Part shown: positions 8,965 through 17,215 of the stretch, piece by piece
Layout: each line of letters starts with the position of its first letter
Numbering within the stretch: position 1 is the stretch's first letter
NCBI GenBank assembly: GCA_027028245.1
Contig: JALVJO010000078.1
Coordinates: forward strand, 59,454-99,789
Length of the DNA stretch: 40,336 bases
Direction: 5' to 3'
Source: Deltaproteobacteria bacterium
GTDB taxonomy: Bacteria > Desulfobacterota > Dissulfuribacteria > Dissulfuribacterales > QOAL01
Program-made: the position numbers and the translations under genes
Notes under the pieces: model-generated
The model's database searches: none
The model's input: only the letters and a program-made list of their open reading frames with translations
What the model was told of the DNA's origin: nothing

Positions 8965-10185
8965 ATGTCAGGTCAAAAGATTACCATAAACCAGGACGGC
9001 ACCATCAATGTACCAGATAATCCTATTATACCGTTTATAGAGGGAGACGGAATAGGTCCGGATATATGGAAGGCAACAAAAAAGGTACTTGATGCTGCGG
9101 TAAACAAGGCCTATGCAGGGCAGAAGTCCATTGACTGGATGGAGGTGTACGCAGGTGAAAAGGCAAAGGAAAAAACCGGCCAGTGGCTACCGCAGGAGAC
9201 ACTGGATGCCATTTCTGAATACGTGGTCGCCATTAAGGGGCCTTTGACCACGCCGGTAGGGGAGGGCATGAGGAGCCTTAATGTCACCTTGAGGCAGGTC
9301 CTTGACCTCTATGCCTGTGTTCGGCCCGTGAAATATTTCAAGGGTGTTCCCAGCCCGGTCAAGCGCCCGGAGCTGGTGGACATGGTGATTTTCAGGGAAA
9401 ATACCGAGGATGTCTATGCTGGGATCGAGTGGCCTGAGGGCAGTGAAGAGGCCCGAAAGGTAATAGATTTTCTCAAGACTGAGATGGGGGTAGAAATACG
9501 GGATGATTCAGGCATAGGCATTAAGCCCATAAGTCGTACCGGGACCCACAGGCTGGTCAGAAAGGCCATACGTCATGCCATTGATACAGGCAGGGATTCG
9601 GTCACCCTGGTTCACAAGGGCAATATCATGAAATATACCGAGGGTGCCTTCAGGAACTGGGGCTACGAACTTGCCCAATTGGAGTTTTCAGAAGAAACCA
9701 TCTCTGAAAAGGAACTTTGGGACAAGTTTGACGGGAAAATGCCCGACGGAAAGATCCTCATAAAAGACAGGATTGCCGATGCCATGTTTCAGCAGATTCT
9801 TCTTCGTCCGGCTGAATACAGTGTTCTTGCCCTTCCCAACCTGAATGGTGACTACATGTCGGATGCCTTGGCAGCCCAGGTAGGAGGCCTTGGCATGGCC
9901 CCTGGGGCCAACATAGGAGACGGCGTGGCGGTTTTCGAGGCCACACATGGGACAGCACCGAAATATACAGGACTCGACAAGGTAAACCCGGGCTCACTTA
10001 TTCTTTCAGGCGCAATGATGCTGGAATATCTCGGCTGGAGCCATGCTACCAGAATGATCCACAATGCACTGGAAGCGGCAATAGCCAGGAAAAGGGTCAC
10101 TTATGATCTTGCCCGGCAGATACCCGATGCAGAAAAGATTAAATGTTCTGAATTTGCAAAGAGTATCGTTGAGTGCATGGGATAA
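8965..10185 (+). CDS. icd: NADP-dependent isocitrate dehydrogenase
   Basis: Icd oxidises isocitrate to 2-oxoglutarate in the TCA cycle. The 406-residue product is close to the E. coli-type dimeric enzyme: [13 protein letters not shown] near the start, [13 protein letters not shown] with the serine that is phosphorylated in E. coli, the [14 protein letters not shown] segment, and [14 protein letters not shown]. The cofactor region [17 protein letters not shown] and the later TYDLAR keep the Lys-Tyr, Val and Tyr-Arg residues that recognise the 2'-phosphate, supporting NADP. The ATG at 8965 has AGGAGGAG upstream; a longer in-frame reading from 8884 is not supported. comF follows with a short overlap. 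Confidence 0.96.
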
Positions 10186-10951
10186 AAAGGGCAGGGCAGG
10201 CAGACATCTGACCGCACTGAAGCGAATCTTTACTGGTCTTTCTGCCCTGATATTTCCTCCGCGATGTGCTTCCTGCAAGAGCTTTTTGGAGCTTCCTGCT
10301 TCTCATCTTATGTGCAGGAAGTGCCGGTCGGAAATTACACCCCTTTCCGGTCCTAGGTGCAAGTGTTGCGGAATGCCCTTTGACAGCACCAAGGGCGTGG
10401 ATCATGTTTGCGCTGCCTGCATAAGAAAACGGCCTCCCTTCAAAAGGGCGGATTCACTTTTCGTCTTTGAAGAAAGCGTACGAAATCTGATACACAGGTT
10501 CAAGTACCACTCAGACATGCCGGCCCTGAGGGCCCTGGTTTCCATTTCTGAAAAGACCCTACAGGATCTGCTGCCAGAAAAGGAAGCAGGAGATGCCGGT
10601 TCATGGGTGGTATTGCCTGTTCCCTTGCACAAAAGCAGGCTCAGGAAAAGGGGATTTAACCATGCAGCGGTTCTTGCAACCAGGCTTTTCAGGGATGCCC
10701 GTATCGATTACAGCCTGCTTCGAAAAACAAGGAAGACTCCCAGCCAGACCGGGTTGTCGTTGAAAGACAGGGAACAAAATATCCGCGGTTCATTTTCATG
10801 CCGCACCCTGCGCCGCGGCTGCAGGCAGGTGCTGATCTTCGATGACGTATTTACAACAGGGGCCACTGCAAGTGCCGCAGCTCTGGCTGTAAAAAAGGCA
10901 GGTGCCGAGGATATCAGGGTCATTACCATTGCAAGGACACCACTTCCCTGA
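10169..10951 (+). CDS. comF: ComF family phosphoribosyltransferase-like protein
   Basis: ComF/GntX-type proteins pair an N-terminal zinc ribbon with a phosphoribosyltransferase fold and are linked to DNA uptake or to phosphate-limited or catabolic settings. Here the ribbon is CASC...CRKC...CKCC...CAAC, followed by [25 protein letters not shown] and the PRPP-binding motif [12 protein letters not shown] near the end. The start is unclear because the gene overlaps icd. In-frame candidates are ATG at 10103 and 10127 and TTG at 10169; I give the shortest overlap, since family proteins start only about 20 residues before the first Cys pair. The overlap suggests transcription with icd. Confidence 0.88.
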
Positions 10952-11015
10952 TTTACGTCAAGCATAATCCGGGATAATACTTCAAAATACCTAAAGTTTA
11001 TTGTCCCTGGTTTTT

Positions 11016-12221
11016 TCATTTCACCACGGACCAGCGTGATCCCATACAGCGAAGGAGCAGAAGGGACTTTGGTGAGAGGCGGGAGTGGTCCCTCTTGTCA
11101 GGGGAAAAGAGCCCTGTAACACCAGGAAAGGGCGCAACCTTTTCCTCAAGGCTCTCTCTTAAGGCTGCACGACCAATATTGTAGGAAGCAGACATGGCCC
11201 TGCACGCCAGGCGGAGACCATCCCATGCCTGCCCTGCGGCCAGCTTCTGTTCCGGAGCCATATTCTGGAAATCGGCTCCCCAGGATTCAACAAATCTCCT
11301 GGTTATAAAATAGGATGGTGATGTCCGGGGAACGGCTTCCCAGTAAAGGACTGGAGGGACAGCCATGTAAATTAGACTGCCCACCGGAAGGGTGACGGCA
11401 GAAGGAGAATTGAAAAAGAGCTGATGGCTCAGGGCCAGGGGGACCTCATTTCGCTGAATAGTGGAATGGACCAGAGGAGCAGCGGACCAGCCGGCCCACA
11501 ATATTGCAATATCCGGCTCGCATCTTGCCAGGTAGCCCAGTTTAAGCAGCAAGTCCTCCCTGTTTGAATTGAACCTGCCGAGGCAGGAGATTTTCAAGCC
11601 GTATTCAGGAGCGTATCCCCTGATCCACAGGGCAGTCTTTCTGGAGGACGGTGTATTGTCCAGCAGACCGCCAAGGTCTTCATATTGTTTCCTTCTGAAA
11701 TAGGAAAAAAGCCTTTTGAGTTCGGCATCGAAATTTAGAGTTGTGGAAAAGGTCCATTTAGTCTTGAGACCTCTGGATTTGAGCAGGGGTTCTATCCCCT
11801 GGATGAGGATCAAGGGGATCTTGCTTGATTCTGCATATCTTCTGAGGGGCAGGACATTTTCCTTTGCGGTAGGCCCAAGAATAATCAGGGCACCCTGGTC
11901 ATGCTGCAGTTTTCTGGCACCTGAAAGAAGGAGGTCGGCCTGCCCCTTGGTGTCAAATACTACTATCTGGACCTGTCTTCCCCTTATGCCCCCCTGGATG
12001 TTTACTTCTTCTGCTGCAAGGCGCACGGCCTTGAATGCTGCTGCTCCATTCATACTCCCCGGTCCGCTTAGATCCAGCAAAACCCCTATGGGCCATGTCT
12101 GTCCTGCAGCAACAGGCATTGTAGCTGCTGAATAAACAAACAGAAAGCTCACCATCAGGGCCAAGAACCGGCGAAAAGAACGCAGGAGGACTGACAATAA
12201 TGTCTGGTTATCGCGGGACAT
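11016..12221 (-). CDS. Type 1 periplasmic binding protein (LivJ/LppC-like)
   Basis: This 401-residue protein has an N-terminal hydrophobic stretch (FLALMVSFLFVYSAATMPVAAG), probably a signal peptide. The mature part begins WPIGVLLDLSGPGSMNGAAAFKAVRLAAEEVN, the start of a type 1 periplasmic binding fold (Peripla_BP_6), with ILGPTAKENVLPL typical of the ligand cleft. No ABC permease or ATPase is adjacent. It starts 8 nt after cpoB and so appears to belong to the tolB-cpoB operon. That context, and the LppC (penicillin-binding protein activator) branch of this fold, suggests an envelope-maintenance or sensing role rather than amino-acid import. This is inference; the ligand is unknown. Confidence 0.8.
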   Translation of the reverse strand: MSRDNQTLLSVLLRSFRRFLALMVSFLFVYSAATMPVAAGQTWPIGVLLDLSGPGSMNGAAAFKAVRLAAEEVNIQGGIRGRQVQIVVFDTKGQADLLLSGARKLQHDQGALIILGPTAKENVLPLRRYAESSKIPLILIQGIEPLLKSRGLKTKWTFSTTLNFDAELKRLFSYFRRKQYEDLGGLLDNTPSSRKTALWIRGYAPEYGLKISCLGRFNSNREDLLLKLGYLARCEPDIAILWAGWSAAPLVHSTIQRNEVPLALSHQLFFNSPSAVTLPVGSLIYMAVPPVLYWEAVPRTSPSYFITRRFVESWGADFQNMAPEQKLAAGQAWDGLRLACRAMSASYNIGRAALRESLEEKVAPFPGVTGLFSPDKRDHSRLSPKSLLLLRCMGSRWSVVK

Positions 12222-12229
12222 TCCGGGGA

Positions 12230-13096
12230 TCAGCCCAGCCGTTTAAGCTGTTTTTTTGCAGCCTTTGCCTGGGGAGTCCCGGGATATTTCTTTACGAGTT
12301 TCTTCAGTACAATCCTTGCACTTTCCTTGTCTCCCAGCCTGGCAAAGGCAAAACCCTGTTTCAAGAGGGCATCGGGCACCTTGTTGCTTTTTGGGAACCT
12401 GCTGATGACCTTCTGGTATTCAAGGATGGCCTCTTCGAATCTGGACAATTTGTACTCGCAGTCCCCAATCCAGAAATGTGCATTGGCAGCCATGGCCGAG
12501 CCGGGGTTTTTCTTGATGAAGGACCTGAATAGCCTCTTTGCATCCTGGTATTTGCCCTGCCTGTAAAGTTCAAGACCCTCTTGGTAAAGGTCCTTTTTTT
12601 CTTCCTGTTTTGGGGGCGGCAGCTCTGTCTGGGAACCGGCAGGGGGCTGTTGAACAGTTGTAACGGGCGGCGTAACAGGAGGAGGGGCAGTGGTATTAAT
12701 GCTCGTTCCCTTGGCCAAAAGCGCCTCCTTAAGCCTTGCCAATTCCTGCTCCTGCTGTTCCTGTTTGTAGTTGGCCTGCTCCAGCAGCCCGTTTATCCTC
12801 ATGAGTTCGCTTTCAAGGGTATCAAGGCGGGAATTGAGCCGCGCATAGGACTTGCGCAGGGATCCGGCCCCCTGTCCCTGGGTATCACCCAGAACCTGGC
12901 CCATCTGTTTCTTGACGGCGGCAAGCTCCCGGTTAATCCTCTGGTTTTCGACCTGAAGGCCGGAAACATTTCTTTCAAGCATGTTGATCTGGGCCTGGGG
13001 CGCACAGCCTGCAAGGATGACGGCAGACAGTACTGCCGACGGTAAGGCACCATGCCGGTTCAGCAGGGTCAGGATCTTTTGTTTGTATCTGGGCAT
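12230..13096 (-). CDS. cpoB: CpoB/YbgF-like Tol-Pal accessory protein
   Basis: The 288-residue protein carries an N-terminal signal ending in VILAGC, a lipobox, so it may be lipid-anchored, unlike E. coli CpoB which is soluble. A coiled coil follows (about residues 35-120, with repeated Gln/Glu/Leu), a Pro-rich linker, and a C-terminal set of TPR repeats (LYQEGLELYRQGKYQDAKRL, then NAHFWIGDCEYKL, then ALLKQGFAFARLG). CpoB coordinates peptidoglycan synthesis with outer-membrane constriction. The ATG at 13096 was chosen for its AGGAGA 4 nt upstream. It follows tolB by 19 nt and, notably, pal is not between them. Confidence 0.9.
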   Translation of the reverse strand: MPRYKQKILTLLNRHGALPSAVLSAVILAGCAPQAQINMLERNVSGLQVENQRINRELAAVKKQMGQVLGDTQGQGAGSLRKSYARLNSRLDTLESELMRINGLLEQANYKQEQQEQELARLKEALLAKGTSINTTAPPPVTPPVTTVQQPPAGSQTELPPPKQEEKKDLYQEGLELYRQGKYQDAKRLFRSFIKKNPGSAMAANAHFWIGDCEYKLSRFEEAILEYQKVISRFPKSNKVPDALLKQGFAFARLGDKESARIVLKKLVKKYPGTPQAKAAKKQLKRLG

Positions 13097-13115
13097 GTCA
13101 TCTCCTGAAAACACG

Positions 13116-14378
13116 TTACTTGAACACATTTGGTCCCCAAAATGGGAAATAGTCACTTTGTCCATAACTTATCAGAAGTCTTTGATTCTGTCCGTTGGCA
13201 TACATGACATAAAGGCTCTTTTTACCATTAGTGCGTGTAGAGCTAAAGAGCAACTGCCTGCCGTCGGGAGACCAGGAGGGATTCTCATTATTGGCTTCAT
13301 AGGTGAGCTGTATTGGCTCTCCGCCGTCGGGTGAAATAGTAAATATCTGGAACCTTCCTCCCTGTCTGCTGACATAGGCAATGCGGTCGCCAGCCGGAGA
13401 CCACTGCGGATCGGTATTATAACTTCCGGAAAAAGTGAGCCGTCTGGTCTTTCCCGAGGAAAGATCCATTATGAAGAGCTGGGGGCTGCCGTTTCTGTCT
13501 GAAACGAATACCAGCCGTCTGCCGTCAGGTGAAAAGGATGGTGAACAGTTAATCCCCGGGCCCCTGGTAAGCCTTTTGATAATCCTGCCGTCAAGGCCTA
13601 TGAGGTAGATGTCAGGGGAGCCTGCCTTGCTGAGTGTTACTGCCAATCTATCACCGGCAGGTGCCCAGGCCGGCGACATATTGAGGCCCCTGTAGCTGGT
13701 AAGCCTGGTGATTTTTCCAGTCTTGAGATTTTTGAGGTATAAACAGGGGCGCCCTGATCTGAAGGAAGTAAAGGAGATAAAATGCCCGTCCGGCGAGTAC
13801 CTCGGGGACATGACAATGGTTTTCTGATTTGTTTCCTGGCGGATATTCATCCCGTCAAAGTCTGCAGAATAGACTTCGCTTTTCTTTCCGTTCCTGGATA
13901 TGAAGAGTATTCTGGAAAGGCTGACTCCAGGCTTTCCAGTAATGGCCTTGACCACTTCGTTGCTGAACATGTGCGCCATTTTTCTGAGGTCATTTACCGT
14001 TCCTATGTATTTTCTGCCCGCCAGCATGGAATCCGTGGAAAGGTCCATGAGTTTCATTACAGCGGTCAGGGACTTACCATGTCTCTCCATGGTGGTGTCT
14101 ATGCGGTAATCCAGCTTTTCATCGCCCGTCAGATAGGAAGAGTCGAAAACTGAGAAAAAACCATGAAAGATCAGGTCTGATTTAAGGGTGGATGTGAGTT
14201 TTTTGGCTGCCTGCTGGTTTTCGAAGTTCTGTGGCAAAAGGTTCGGGGTGGAAAGTGATATGGGAATCTTTTCCATGAAAGGAGAAGATATGTCTATGTA
14301 AATCTTTGACTGTACTGGAATTGCCAGAATTGAGGCAATTAACAGGGTTATGATTGACGGCAAGATTTTTCTTTTCAT
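13116..14378 (-). CDS. tolB: Tol-Pal system protein TolB
   Basis: TolB is the periplasmic component of the Tol-Pal envelope system and binds Pal and TolA. The 420-residue protein starts with a signal peptide (MKRKILPSIITLLIASILAIPVQS), an N-terminal domain with KLTSTLKSDLIFHGFFSV, and then repeated PD40 beta-propeller blades: SPRYSPDGHFISFTS, SPAWAPAGDRLAVT, SPSFSPDGRRLVFVS, DPQWSPAGDRIAYVS and NPSWSPDGRQLLFSS. Length and architecture are normal. It heads a tolB-cpoB-binding protein operon and is separated from the upstream sulfur cluster by a strong hairpin at 14393-14427. tolQ, tolR and tolA are not in this window. Confidence 0.96.
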   Translation of the reverse strand: MKRKILPSIITLLIASILAIPVQSKIYIDISSPFMEKIPISLSTPNLLPQNFENQQAAKKLTSTLKSDLIFHGFFSVFDSSYLTGDEKLDYRIDTTMERHGKSLTAVMKLMDLSTDSMLAGRKYIGTVNDLRKMAHMFSNEVVKAITGKPGVSLSRILFISRNGKKSEVYSADFDGMNIRQETNQKTIVMSPRYSPDGHFISFTSFRSGRPCLYLKNLKTGKITRLTSYRGLNMSPAWAPAGDRLAVTLSKAGSPDIYLIGLDGRIIKRLTRGPGINCSPSFSPDGRRLVFVSDRNGSPQLFIMDLSSGKTRRLTFSGSYNTDPQWSPAGDRIAYVSRQGGRFQIFTISPDGGEPIQLTYEANNENPSWSPDGRQLLFSSTRTNGKKSLYVMYANGQNQRLLISYGQSDYFPFWGPNVFK

Positions 14379-14392
14379 AGGCCTAAATATAA

Positions 14393-14427
14393 AAGGCCTC
14401 AGCCAATATGCAATTGGCTGAGGCCTT
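14393..14427 (-). terminator. Strong Rho-independent terminator after the yedE-tusA-dsrE operon
   Basis: A 15-bp perfect stem AAGGCCTCAGCCAAT / ATTGGCTGAGGCCTT encloses a 5-nt loop. It lies 33 nt past the last gene of the sulfur operon and 14 nt before the tolB start. T-rich sequence flanks it on both strands. It should isolate tolB transcription from the sulfur genes. Confidence 0.85.
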
Positions 14428-14460: not shown

Positions 14461-14652
14461 TTACCACCAGCTGACAGTCTGATCCGCGTCAAAGATCTGC
14501 TGTACAAGGATGTCATAGTTGGGATCACCCTTATACAGGTTGAATTCCTCTGCATCCCTGTCGCGGTTCAGTATCTCAACGAGTTTTTTTACCTCATCGT
14601 TTGGTTCTGACCTGTAAACGTGCAATATTTTCATCTTTTTTTCGTCGCTCAT
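14461..14652 (-). CDS. Small protein of the YTD sulfur cluster (DsrH/TusB-like?)
   Basis: This 63-residue protein is the last gene of the sulfur operon, starting MSDEKKMKILHVYRSEP and ending FDADQTVSWW. It has an alternating strand-helix pattern and no cysteine. Its size and the ILHVYRS opening loosely recall DsrH/TusB-type sulfur-relay proteins, but without the sulfur-carrying cysteine it could not act as a carrier by itself. By position it corresponds to one of the two unnamed proteins of the YTD cluster. It starts 14 nt after the preceding gene and GGGGAGGATGG supplies its ribosome binding site. Confidence 0.75.
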   Translation of the reverse strand: MSDEKKMKILHVYRSEPNDEVKKLVEILNRDRDAEEFNLYKGDPNYDILVQQIFDADQTVSWW

Positions 14653-14666
14653 ACCATCCTCCCCTA

Positions 14667-15008
14667 TTAGTCTTCAGAACAAGCTGGTGGTGGAGCCTTG
14701 GTCTGTTTGGGCAGGCCATAGGGAATTATGAGGTCTGCTTCCCTGAGTTTTTCACCAAGCTCTTCCAGTGTGATGTTGGTAATTTCTACGCCTTCTACCG
14801 CTTCCCCGTCTACAGTGAATACATCGCCTTCCATATCCCTGATCCAGTCTATGTTCTCTTTAACATATTCAGAGAAGCGGGGATATTCATTATAGAAAAA
14901 GACCGGATAGGAATAATGATTTTCTACCGCAAGCCCCAGGGCCGAACGCACTGCATCCCCGGAATACATCCGGTTGGGCAACAGGAAATAACACTTTTTG
15001 GATTCCAT
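14667..15008 (-). CDS. DsrE/DsrF-like small protein of the YTD sulfur cluster
   Basis: The 113-residue protein starts MESKKCYFLLPNRMYSGDAVRSALGLAVEN, similar to the first strand and helix of DsrE/TusD-type folds. Cysteines are at residue 6 and at 110, in the C-terminal PPPACSED tail, which could be a mobile sulfur-accepting cysteine. By gene order it is the other unnamed YTD member. It lies 18 nt after the DsrE-like gene and has GGAGGC before the ATG. The fold assignment is tentative. Confidence 0.75.
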   Translation of the reverse strand: MESKKCYFLLPNRMYSGDAVRSALGLAVENHYSYPVFFYNEYPRFSEYVKENIDWIRDMEGDVFTVDGEAVEGVEITNITLEELGEKLREADLIIPYGLPKQTKAPPPACSED

Positions 15009-15026
15009 AGTTTAAAGCCTCCTTGA

Positions 15027-15359
15027 TTACATCACCAGATATTTGCCGCATTCATCGATAATGGCACCGTGAAAGGCCTGAGTCCTCATCTGGCGGCCAG
15101 TAAGCCCCTTCGGAATATCGGCTTCAACATCATATCCTTCGCAGGTGTAGCTGTCTGCACAGATCGCCACATCTTCTATATCGCAAAGGTTGGCCAGTTT
15201 TACGAAATCTGGATGTTTTGTAAGATGGATCGATTTGAAGGTGAAAAAGACCATTACTTTCTTCCCGGCTCTGACAGCGGCAGTAGCAATACCTACCACG
15301 TGTCTCATATGCTGGGGAGATGTAACAAAGATTCCCAGTTTGTTTGGATCAGCAGCCAT
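15027..15359 (-). CDS. DsrE family sulfur-relay protein
   Basis: The 110-residue protein is a DsrE/DsrEFH-like member: KLGIFVTSPQHMRHVVGIATAAVRAGKKVMVFFTFKS at the start is the Rossmann-like strand-helix-strand, and cysteines at 59, 67, 73 and 104 are candidates for persulfide transfer. DsrE-like proteins accept sulfane sulfur from TusA and pass it on. In sulfur disproportionators the yedE-tusA-dsrE trio is the core of the YTD cluster. The gene is 44 nt after tusA, with AGGGAGG before the ATG. Which cysteine carries sulfur cannot be told by sequence alone; C104, near the C-terminus, resembles the position in known DsrE proteins. Confidence 0.88.
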   Translation of the reverse strand: MAADPNKLGIFVTSPQHMRHVVGIATAAVRAGKKVMVFFTFKSIHLTKHPDFVKLANLCDIEDVAICADSYTCEGYDVEADIPKGLTGRQMRTQAFHGAIIDECGKYLVM

Positions 15360-15403
15360 TGAAATAAATCCTCCCTTTCTTCAGATTGTGAAGAATTATG
15401 AAA

Positions 15404-15661
15404 CTATTTTTTCTTTATGAAAAAGCGGATGAAACCCTCTTCTTCACGCTCGCCAAGGTATTCATGGCCGGCCCGGGCGCACCAGCCTGGAATGTCGTTT
15501 CTTGAACCAGGATCTGTTCCAAGAACTTCAAGGATTTCGCCGGAATTGATCTTGCCGATTTCCTTTTTGGTCCTCAGAAGAGGCATGGGGCAGCTGAGTC
15601 CTTTTGCGTCCAAAGTACGTGCTACCTCTAAACCTTCAGGGGCAATTTTTGCGTCGCTCAT
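15404..15661 (-). CDS. tusA: TusA-type sulfur carrier protein
   Basis: The 85-residue TusA-like protein has the signature LDAKGLSCPMPLLRTKKEIGKI with catalytic Cys24 in the CPxP motif. It carries sulfane sulfur as a persulfide between donors and acceptors in the cytoplasm. The C-terminal half (EILEVLGTDPGSRNDIPGWCARAGHE) has a further Cys in the WC position typical of this family. Directly downstream of yedE and upstream of the dsrE-like gene, it is placed to receive sulfur imported by the permease. A GGAGG ribosome binding site precedes its ATG. Confidence 0.95.
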   Translation of the reverse strand: MSDAKIAPEGLEVARTLDAKGLSCPMPLLRTKKEIGKINSGEILEVLGTDPGSRNDIPGWCARAGHEYLGEREEEGFIRFFIKKK

Positions 15662-15719
15662 GTTTCCTCCTTTTTTGTTGTTATATTTCTGTATTTTTGT
15701 TCAGTTTGTAAACTGAATA

Positions 15720-17066
15720 TTACATTTCAACAATGAGTTTGTTTGAATCCTCGTTCCAGTCAACAATGATGTACCAGGCCGTCATGGCAAGCACTATAAG
15801 AAGGAGGGTACCACCATATCCCAGGGCATCAGGAAGATAAAGATGCATTCCAAGCTTGCTTCCCTCGTGGGTTGCTCCTGTGCCTTCCATGTGAACAGCC
15901 TTGAACAATTTGACCATGAGGGCATTTGATATTCCAAAGAAGGGTACGACCAGCCAGAGTTTGATCTGACCTTCGCCAACCCTCCAGAGGGTTCCAGAGC
16001 CGCAGCCGCCTGCGAACATGGCCCCGAGACCGAACAGGAAGCCGCCCAATACTCCTCCCCATCCAAAGGTGCCGCGCACGTAATTGACTGGGTCCAGCAC
16101 CCTTCTGGCAGCTATCACTGCCTGCTCTGATGCATCAACCACGTCTTCTACGGCATCTGCCAGGTCTTCATCCTGGATTTCATCGGGCTCCAGTTCATCA
16201 ACTGCATCCATGAGGACTGATTGTACGGCAACGGCTGAACCCCTCTGGGGAACAGCATATTTCAATACTGCACATCCTACTGCCAGCACCAGTATGCTGA
16301 GAATAACTGACTTGGCAAGGGTGCAGTCTCCTGTCATATGGGGTTCCCTGAATGCCTGGACCATACACCAGCGGCCTCTCTGCATGGTGTAGCCCAGACC
16401 GGCAGAAATCAGCAGTATGCCGCTAAGGGATGCTGCATAATTATCGCTCATGTCTGAATACTGGTATGCTCCCCAGATGACCAGAACTATGCCAATTATT
16501 CCTATTACGATTTTGAGCCCGTATGGAAAATCAATGTTCTTGCCTCCGCTGGTACCCCAGGTGATGTGTTCCATTTCCCAGTAAATATACTTGAGACCCA
16601 GTATGACTCCTATTATGAGCCCGAGCCACATGGTGAATCCATTGGCAGCCAGGTTTCCAATGGCGTTGTACATGCCTCCAACATTACAGCCGCCGGCAAA
16701 GGCAGAGCCGATGCCCATGAGAATACCGGCTATTATGGCCTTGATGAATTCCCATGGAGGCGGGAATTTGAAGGAGAAATCATTTCCGAGGCATGCGGAA
16801 ATGAAGGCACCTGCCAGAAAGCCCACGCCTATGACCGAACCAGAATTGATCAATACATCACCGGGCTTATCAAAAAGGCCAACCCCGTACAGGATCCATT
16901 CGCCCCAGTTCCTGATGGCGCCTACTGCTCCCCACGGCCGCCACCATGCCATGATGAGAATACTTAGCAGTGCAACTATCACTCCTGCAACGGTTGCATT
17001 CCATTCGGTCTGACACAAAATCTTGAAGAAATTTTTGACCTTATCCTTCATAATGCTTTCACTCAT
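15720..17066 (-). CDS. YeeE/YedE-type sulfur compound permease
   Basis: The 448-residue membrane protein has about 10 predicted hydrophobic segments in two related halves, each with a conserved GGC motif: AFAGGCNVGG (C127) and FAGGCGSGTLWR (C355). A GRWC motif (C234) and C248 lie between them. These cysteines resemble those lining the path in the YeeE/TsuA thiosulfate transporter. A ~45-residue, very acidic, non-membrane loop (about 283-325) separates the halves. Head of the yedE-tusA-dsrE operon, it probably moves a reduced sulfur species, such as thiosulfate or sulfane sulfur, across the inner membrane to TusA. A GGAGGAA ribosome binding site precedes the ATG. The exact substrate is unproven. 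Confidence 0.92.
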   Translation of the reverse strand: MSESIMKDKVKNFFKILCQTEWNATVAGVIVALLSILIMAWWRPWGAVGAIRNWGEWILYGVGLFDKPGDVLINSGSVIGVGFLAGAFISACLGNDFSFKFPPPWEFIKAIIAGILMGIGSAFAGGCNVGGMYNAIGNLAANGFTMWLGLIIGVILGLKYIYWEMEHITWGTSGGKNIDFPYGLKIVIGIIGIVLVIWGAYQYSDMSDNYAASLSGILLISAGLGYTMQRGRWCMVQAFREPHMTGDCTLAKSVILSILVLAVGCAVLKYAVPQRGSAVAVQSVLMDAVDELEPDEIQDEDLADAVEDVVDASEQAVIAARRVLDPVNYVRGTFGWGGVLGGFLFGLGAMFAGGCGSGTLWRVGEGQIKLWLVVPFFGISNALMVKLFKAVHMEGTGATHEGSKLGMHLYLPDALGYGGTLLLIVLAMTAWYIIVDWNEDSNKLIVEM

Positions 17067-17186: not shown

Positions 17187-17215
17187 TGTGTACCAAAATT
17201 CACGCACTGTGTCAA
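17187..17215 (-). promoter_or_regulatory. Predicted sigma-70 promoter of the YTD sulfur operon
   Basis: On the minus strand TTGACA (17215-17210) is followed after exactly 17 nt by TACACA (17192-17187). The -35 box is perfect and the -10 box is weak (four of six). The site is 121 nt upstream of the yedE start. A weak -10 is compatible with regulation by an activator, but no regulator site was identified. Confidence 0.45.

Follow-up and report, generated by a model that had tools for sequence, protein, structure and literature searches.

A complete YTD gene cluster in the Dissulfuribacterales encodes a predicted DsrEFH type II complex with a conserved cysteine in the DsrF tail

The YTD cluster, in which yedE-related, tusA and dsrE-related genes stand together with two conserved hypothetical genes, has been defined in earlier work (PMC12998232, PMC8780430). 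Its DsrE-like protein and the two hypothetical proteins were modelled as a DsrEFH-like double trimer (PMC13047784, BMC Genomics, March 2026), and the three subunits were co-purified as a complex named DsrEFH type II (PMC13293266, ISME J, May 2026). In vitro, the Candidatus Electronema aureum proteins transfer sulfur from TusA to DsrE-Cys67 and on to DsrC (PMC13293266). A further YTD cluster is known from the obligate disproportionator Dissulfurimicrobium hydrothermale Sh68T (PMC8780430). More distant are the DsrEFH type I of Allochromatium vinosum (2HY5, PMC3397948), in which neither DsrF nor DsrH binds sulfur and DsrH-Cys20, missing from type II, is essential in vivo (PMC3397948, PMC13047784), and the YeeE-YeeD (TsuA-TsuB) thiosulfate system, likewise composed of a permease with three cysteines and a TusA-like partner. 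Here we compare with these systems a locus in a 40,336-nt stretch of a Dissulfuribacterales genome, hereafter the window.

Layout of the operon and identity of its products

The ORF listing gives five genes on the minus strand at 14461-17066, exactly where a reading of the sequence alone had placed five closely spaced genes. In transcription order these are yedE (15720..17066; 448 aa, YeeE/YedE-family sulfur permease, Sulf_transp PF04143), tusA (15404..15661; sulfur carrier of 85 aa), a dsrE-like gene (15027..15359; 110 aa) and the two conserved hypothetical genes for proteins of 113 (14667..15008) and 63 residues (14461..14652), separated by 58, 44, 18 and 14 nt and each preceded by a GGAGG-type ribosome site. 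With all five gene types together, as that sequence-only reading had claimed, the locus is a complete YTD cluster, a member of an already known type of sulfur-import and sulfur-handover operon. The strong terminator expected downstream is borne out by an intrinsic terminator pattern at 14393..14427 (15-bp stem with 8 G-C pairs and T-rich flanks). Of the promoter proposed at 17187-17215 (minus strand; TTGACA-17-TACACA, read from the letters), the perfect -35 box at 17-nt spacing stands, but the -10 box is poor. A consensus scan is silent at this site because TACACA lacks the final T, and promoter-like matches in the region (8, versus 5.1 ± 2.3 in shuffled sequence) are near expectation, leaving a weak sigma-70-like candidate.

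YedE matches Pfam Sulf_transp (E 8e-41) and TusA matches Pfam TusA (E 9e-26), the CPxP site of the latter being a CPMP motif with Cys24. The cysteines of AGGCN, QRGRWC and AGGCG in YedE align with C293, C22 and C91 of Spirochaeta thermophila TsuA (6leo), so that all three GGC/GRWC sites recognized from the sequence have counterparts. However, the two halves of the permease occur in the opposite order to those of TsuA, and YedE is collinear with the YedE/FdhT model across the matched part. YedE scores 80 bits with the TsuA model (cut-off 400) and TusA scores 18 bits with the TsuB model (cut-off 147.5). Between the halves of YedE lies an acidic stretch (16092-16244, about residues 275-325, DAVDELEPDEIQDEDLADAVEDV).

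The DsrE-like, 113-residue and 63-residue proteins score below cut-off with every family of Pfam, NCBIfam and PHROGs, and searches of the DsrE-like protein against solved structures, by sequence alone and as a profile, return no reliable match. It neither matches sulf_tusD_dsrE (TIGR03012) nor resembles DsrE type I, and relative to the A. vinosum type I complex there is no sequence similarity above noise. The three genes are instead syntenic orthologs of dsrE, dsrF and dsrH of E. aureum GS (locus L077; identities of 74% for TusA, 76% for DsrE, 60% for DsrF and 67% for DsrH). The fetched E. aureum proteins hold four cysteines in DsrE, two in DsrF and one in DsrH, and this total of seven agrees exactly with the published work, which counts six cysteines besides Cys67 and places two of those in DsrF (PMC13293266). 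Cys67 (codon 15161-15159, minus strand) has the same number in both organisms and is, among the four cysteines confirmed in the window's DsrE, the only one shared by every one of the 137 loci compared, a set to which some genomes contribute more than one locus. The two small proteins, treated as unknowns by the sequence-only reading, are DsrF (113 residues) and DsrH (63 residues, with a conserved WW end) of DsrEFH type II, in agreement with PMC13293266 and, independently, PMC13047784; for DsrH the assignment is a prediction from orthology and gene order.

AlphaFold2, supplied with alignments of related loci, modelled DsrF at a mean pLDDT of 80 in the best of five models (the other four, 49-68) and DsrH as a small alpha/beta protein at pLDDT 91. 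Foldseek alone gave weak matches for both, and only a second alignment of DsrF, with VIA-align, yielded a clear superfamily match. Its seven best rows are all DsrE/F-superfamily structures, namely 3mc3 (Z 8.9), YchN 1jx7 (8.5), 2qs7 (8.5), A. vinosum DsrEFH 2hy5_C (8.3; rmsd 3.0 over 91 residues), 3pnx (7.8), 2fb6 (7.7) and TusBCD 2d1p_A (7.2), followed by the first unrelated row at 6.1; we take 2fb6 and YchN to be members of this superfamily. The DsrE/F-like character ascribed to the 113-residue protein from its sequence is thereby supported at the level of the predicted fold. When the DsrH model was aligned with solved structures, no DsrH row appeared among the matches, which were unrelated alpha/beta proteins up to Z 5.3 (63 residues).

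Across 30 loci from the phylum and 80 named genome records, every contig of sufficient length preserves the order dsrE-dsrF-dsrH, which is therefore not due to chance; tusA adjoins dsrEFH in all of the 80 records. Within the window's order, 39 of 41 genomes have dsrE. About 20 related loci have a divergent M16 peptidase gene beside the cluster, and within the family tolB/cpoB come after it. On plasmids, the sole match was weak and partial, to a single tusA-like gene. Recent transfer is ruled out by the kept M16 peptidase/tolB flanks and the near-universal presence in the order; the cluster is a vertically kept trait. The loose part is yedE, on the same strand as the other genes in the window's order and in Thermodesulfatator relatives but divergent in E. 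aureum, most Desulfobulbales and cable bacteria. In several genomes YedE is only 40-46% identical although the relay proteins reach 75-85%. The D. hydrothermale cluster (G101), from the same order of bacteria and with five genes on one strand, is 82% identical in TusA, 78% in DsrE, 82% in DsrF and 79% in DsrH but only 46% in YedE, and the permease is therefore more variable than the relay proteins.

Downstream partners and the proposed sulfur route

The genome (2.86 Mb in 205 contigs, 96% complete) was checked for the enzymes that the sequence-only reading had asked about, and sat, aprB, an aprA split over the ends of contigs 66 and 25, dsrA (571 bits) and dsrB (504 bits) were all found, the last two over cut-off. 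An 86-aa DsrD-like ORF, called by sequence resemblance and position, directly follows dsrB; dsrM, dsrK, dsrJ and dsrP are present, as is qmoC with two HdrA-like neighbours. DsrC has both C-terminal cysteines, its arm ending in ...GACKMAGLPKPTGCV. Contig 189 carries molyC-A-B, a group of genes for a TorD-type chaperone, a molybdopterin subunit related to PhsA and an Fe-S subunit, with no membrane anchor; this layout is named MOLY in PMC12998232. MolyA orthologs at 63-87% identity occur in most genomes of the order and close ones are absent from several of its DsrE carriers. At positions 16040-16642 of locus L113 the dsrJ ORF runs into the C-terminus of DsrO and matches both models, so that this junction is fused, shortened or misassembled. 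Contigs 94 and 185 hold further weak dsrA-like matches of the sulfite/nitrite reductase type, two with an in-frame stop. Contigs 49 (L145, about 9070-11856) and 50 (L143, about 9611-13723) each encode a molybdopterin oxidoreductase with one in-frame TGA, the former adjoining an FDH3-type beta subunit and a TorD-like gene; both are probably selenocysteine formate dehydrogenases.

We propose that YedE would bring sulfane sulfur (polysulfide, S0-derived sulfur or possibly thiosulfate) across the membrane, that Cys24 of TusA would accept it as a persulfide and pass it to Cys67 of DsrE within a DsrE-DsrF-DsrH trimer, and that DsrEFH would hand it to the C-terminal cysteine of DsrC for presentation to DsrAB. 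Reductive-type DsrAB run oxidatively, followed by AprBA/Qmo and Sat, could then convert the sulfur to sulfate, and in a disproportionator the way from YedE to Sat would constitute the oxidative branch. We regard the route YedE → TusA → DsrEFH type II → DsrC → DsrAB as likely overall, and its first part, which the sequence-only reading had outlined as far as the DsrE-like protein, coincides with the published one. Complex formation and the transfer from TusA through DsrE-Cys67 to DsrC were demonstrated on the E. aureum orthologs (PMC13293266), which share with the window the genes, the dsrE-F-H order beside tusA and yedE, and a background of reductive dsrAB. The substrate of YedE, the direction of flow in vivo and the use in disproportionation are those we infer. 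Enzyme-level proof for an oxidative action of reductive DsrAB is lacking (PMC13293266).

The likeness of YedE to TsuA, with three cysteines in common, would also suit a scheme proposed for cable bacteria (PMC13047784), in which the permease imports thiosulfate, TusA cleaves it as YeeD/TsuB does, and DsrEFH receives sulfide or sulfite equivalents. This appears quite improbable, as both proteins score far under the cut-offs for TsuA and TsuB, YedE has its halves the other way round, and no persulfide formed on the E. aureum proteins with thiosulfate (PMC13293266). Delivery of sulfur for housekeeping, that is, for tRNA thiolation or cofactor assembly as by TusABCDE, would be in line with the TusA-TusBCD architecture of TusA plus a DsrEFH-like trimer and with a genome in which a model search, with Escherichia coli as positive control, found no type I DsrE/TusD; the tight link to dsrA and the position of yedE inside the operon make it highly improbable.

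More weight attaches to the question of whether the operon is dedicated to disproportionation, feeding the oxidative branch solely during disproportionation of S0 or thiosulfate. A complete cluster was found in all S0 disproportionators of the Desulfobacterota studied (PMC12998232), and YTD proteins were more abundant during thiosulfate disproportionation in Desulfolithobacter (PMC9751629). The MOLY-like genes of this genome, the wide presence of MolyA in the order, and D. hydrothermale as a member of that order carrying both clusters point the same way. However, among 297 genomes of the phylum, dsrA over cut-off was found in 52 of the 53 with a DsrE relative versus 91 of the 244 others (p 3e-18, a value that overstates independence as the genomes are related). 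Named YTD carriers include Electronema, Electrothrix, Desulfobulbus rhabdoformis, D. alkaliphilus, Desulfogranum japonicum and D. mediterraneum. Strains for which the evidence speaks against any form of disproportionation have the cluster (PMC12998232), only 25 of the 63 cultured disproportionators, or 40% of those known, carry it (PMC13293266), and dsrE is nearly universal in the window's order even where close MolyA orthologs are absent. A dedicated operon is thus unlikely. The sequence-only reading had matched the set to sulfur disproportionators and had named an equally common occurrence in organisms incapable of disproportionation as grounds for refutation; cable bacteria and Desulfobulbus and Desulfogranum sulfate reducers do carry it, which largely removes that part of the claim. 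YTD is no marker of disproportionation and is better described as sulfur transfer to reductive DsrAB. The source organism itself plausibly disproportionates sulfur, because it combines sulfate-reduction genes with a MOLY-like cluster and has Dissulfurimicrobium in its order. In this lineage of likely sulfur disproportionators, two formerly 'unknown' genes can now be tied to DsrF and DsrH.

A conserved cysteine in the C-terminal tail of DsrF

Comparison of loci across the phylum revealed two kinds of type II complex, with and without a DsrF tail. The tail clade (89 non-redundant rows, SH-aLRT 99) spans the window's order, Thermodesulfatator-like genomes, Desulfobulbaceae, Desulfocapsaceae and cable bacteria and includes the E. 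aureum complex tested in vitro, whose tail reads PPPACAE. Here DsrF extends past the last strand by GLPKQxxxPPPAC(S/A)(E/D), and in DsrE Cys73 (codon 15143-15141, minus strand, in the window) is invariant alongside Cys67. In the 29 rows outside the clade, DsrF ends at about ...IPF/IPYG and DsrE lacks Cys73, so that tail and Cys73 pair with zero exceptions in either direction. In the window, the tail comprises residues 98-113 of DsrF (14670..14717, minus strand; GLPKQTKAPPPACSED), and its Cys110 (codon 14681-14679, minus strand) is invariant in 89 of 89 tail-clade rows. This cysteine has undergone 0 amino-acid changes in the clade versus a mean of 7.3 at the other tail columns, with at least 23 switches of its codon between TGT and TGC. 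The low confidence of the modelled tail (pLDDT blocks of 61 and 47) is what a mobile arm would give.

Because it is strictly held on what would be a mobile arm, the tail cysteine is unlikely to be incidental. Repeated joint origin of tail and Cys73 was considered and rejected; both map to one branch with one change each, and their pairing is therefore a single event, neither correlated evolution nor proof of interaction. The evidence lies in the later strict conservation only, not in the co-occurrence. In the in vitro work on E. aureum, polysulfide loaded DsrF with one sulfur, and DsrC still received sulfur from the complex with DsrE-Cys67Ser, both of which the authors ascribe to nonspecific reaction of exposed cysteines (PMC13293266); the main text of that paper does not mention the tail. 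It is possible, if somewhat doubtful, that Cys110 on the tail-clade arm acts together with DsrE-Cys73 as a second, genuine site of sulfur handling, perhaps as a donor to DsrC and a stand-in for the DsrH-Cys20 of A. vinosum, the arm resembling those that bear cysteines in DsrC/TusE. In E. aureum, the 'nonspecific' persulfide on DsrF may sit at this cysteine, and in that case the persulfide and the residual Cys67Ser transfer would be on-pathway. The main alternative is a disulfide or redox switch between the tail cysteine and DsrE-Cys73. Further genomes with dsrA, such as G195 (L026), which may be Desulfurivibrio alkaliphilus, have tail-less complexes, and this counts against a universal need for the tail. 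The same holds for the in vitro finding that TusA persulfidated only DsrE (PMC13293266). If functional, the tail cysteine would call for a revision of the relay TusA → DsrE-Cys67 → DsrC as published. It is a modest lead and the only new point; the rest of the locus is an orthologous member of a system worked out in 2026.

Tail-less dsrEFH type II genes with neither tusA nor yedE within about 2.5 kb were seen in L122, L123, L125, L140, L148 and similar loci (families f22, f12 and f54), those of L140 and L148 lying near ORFs that resemble Ppx/GppA and IMP dehydrogenase. Three genomes of the window's order (G297, G306 and G312) have two DsrE type II genes, one 59-76% and the other 36-40% identical to that of the window.
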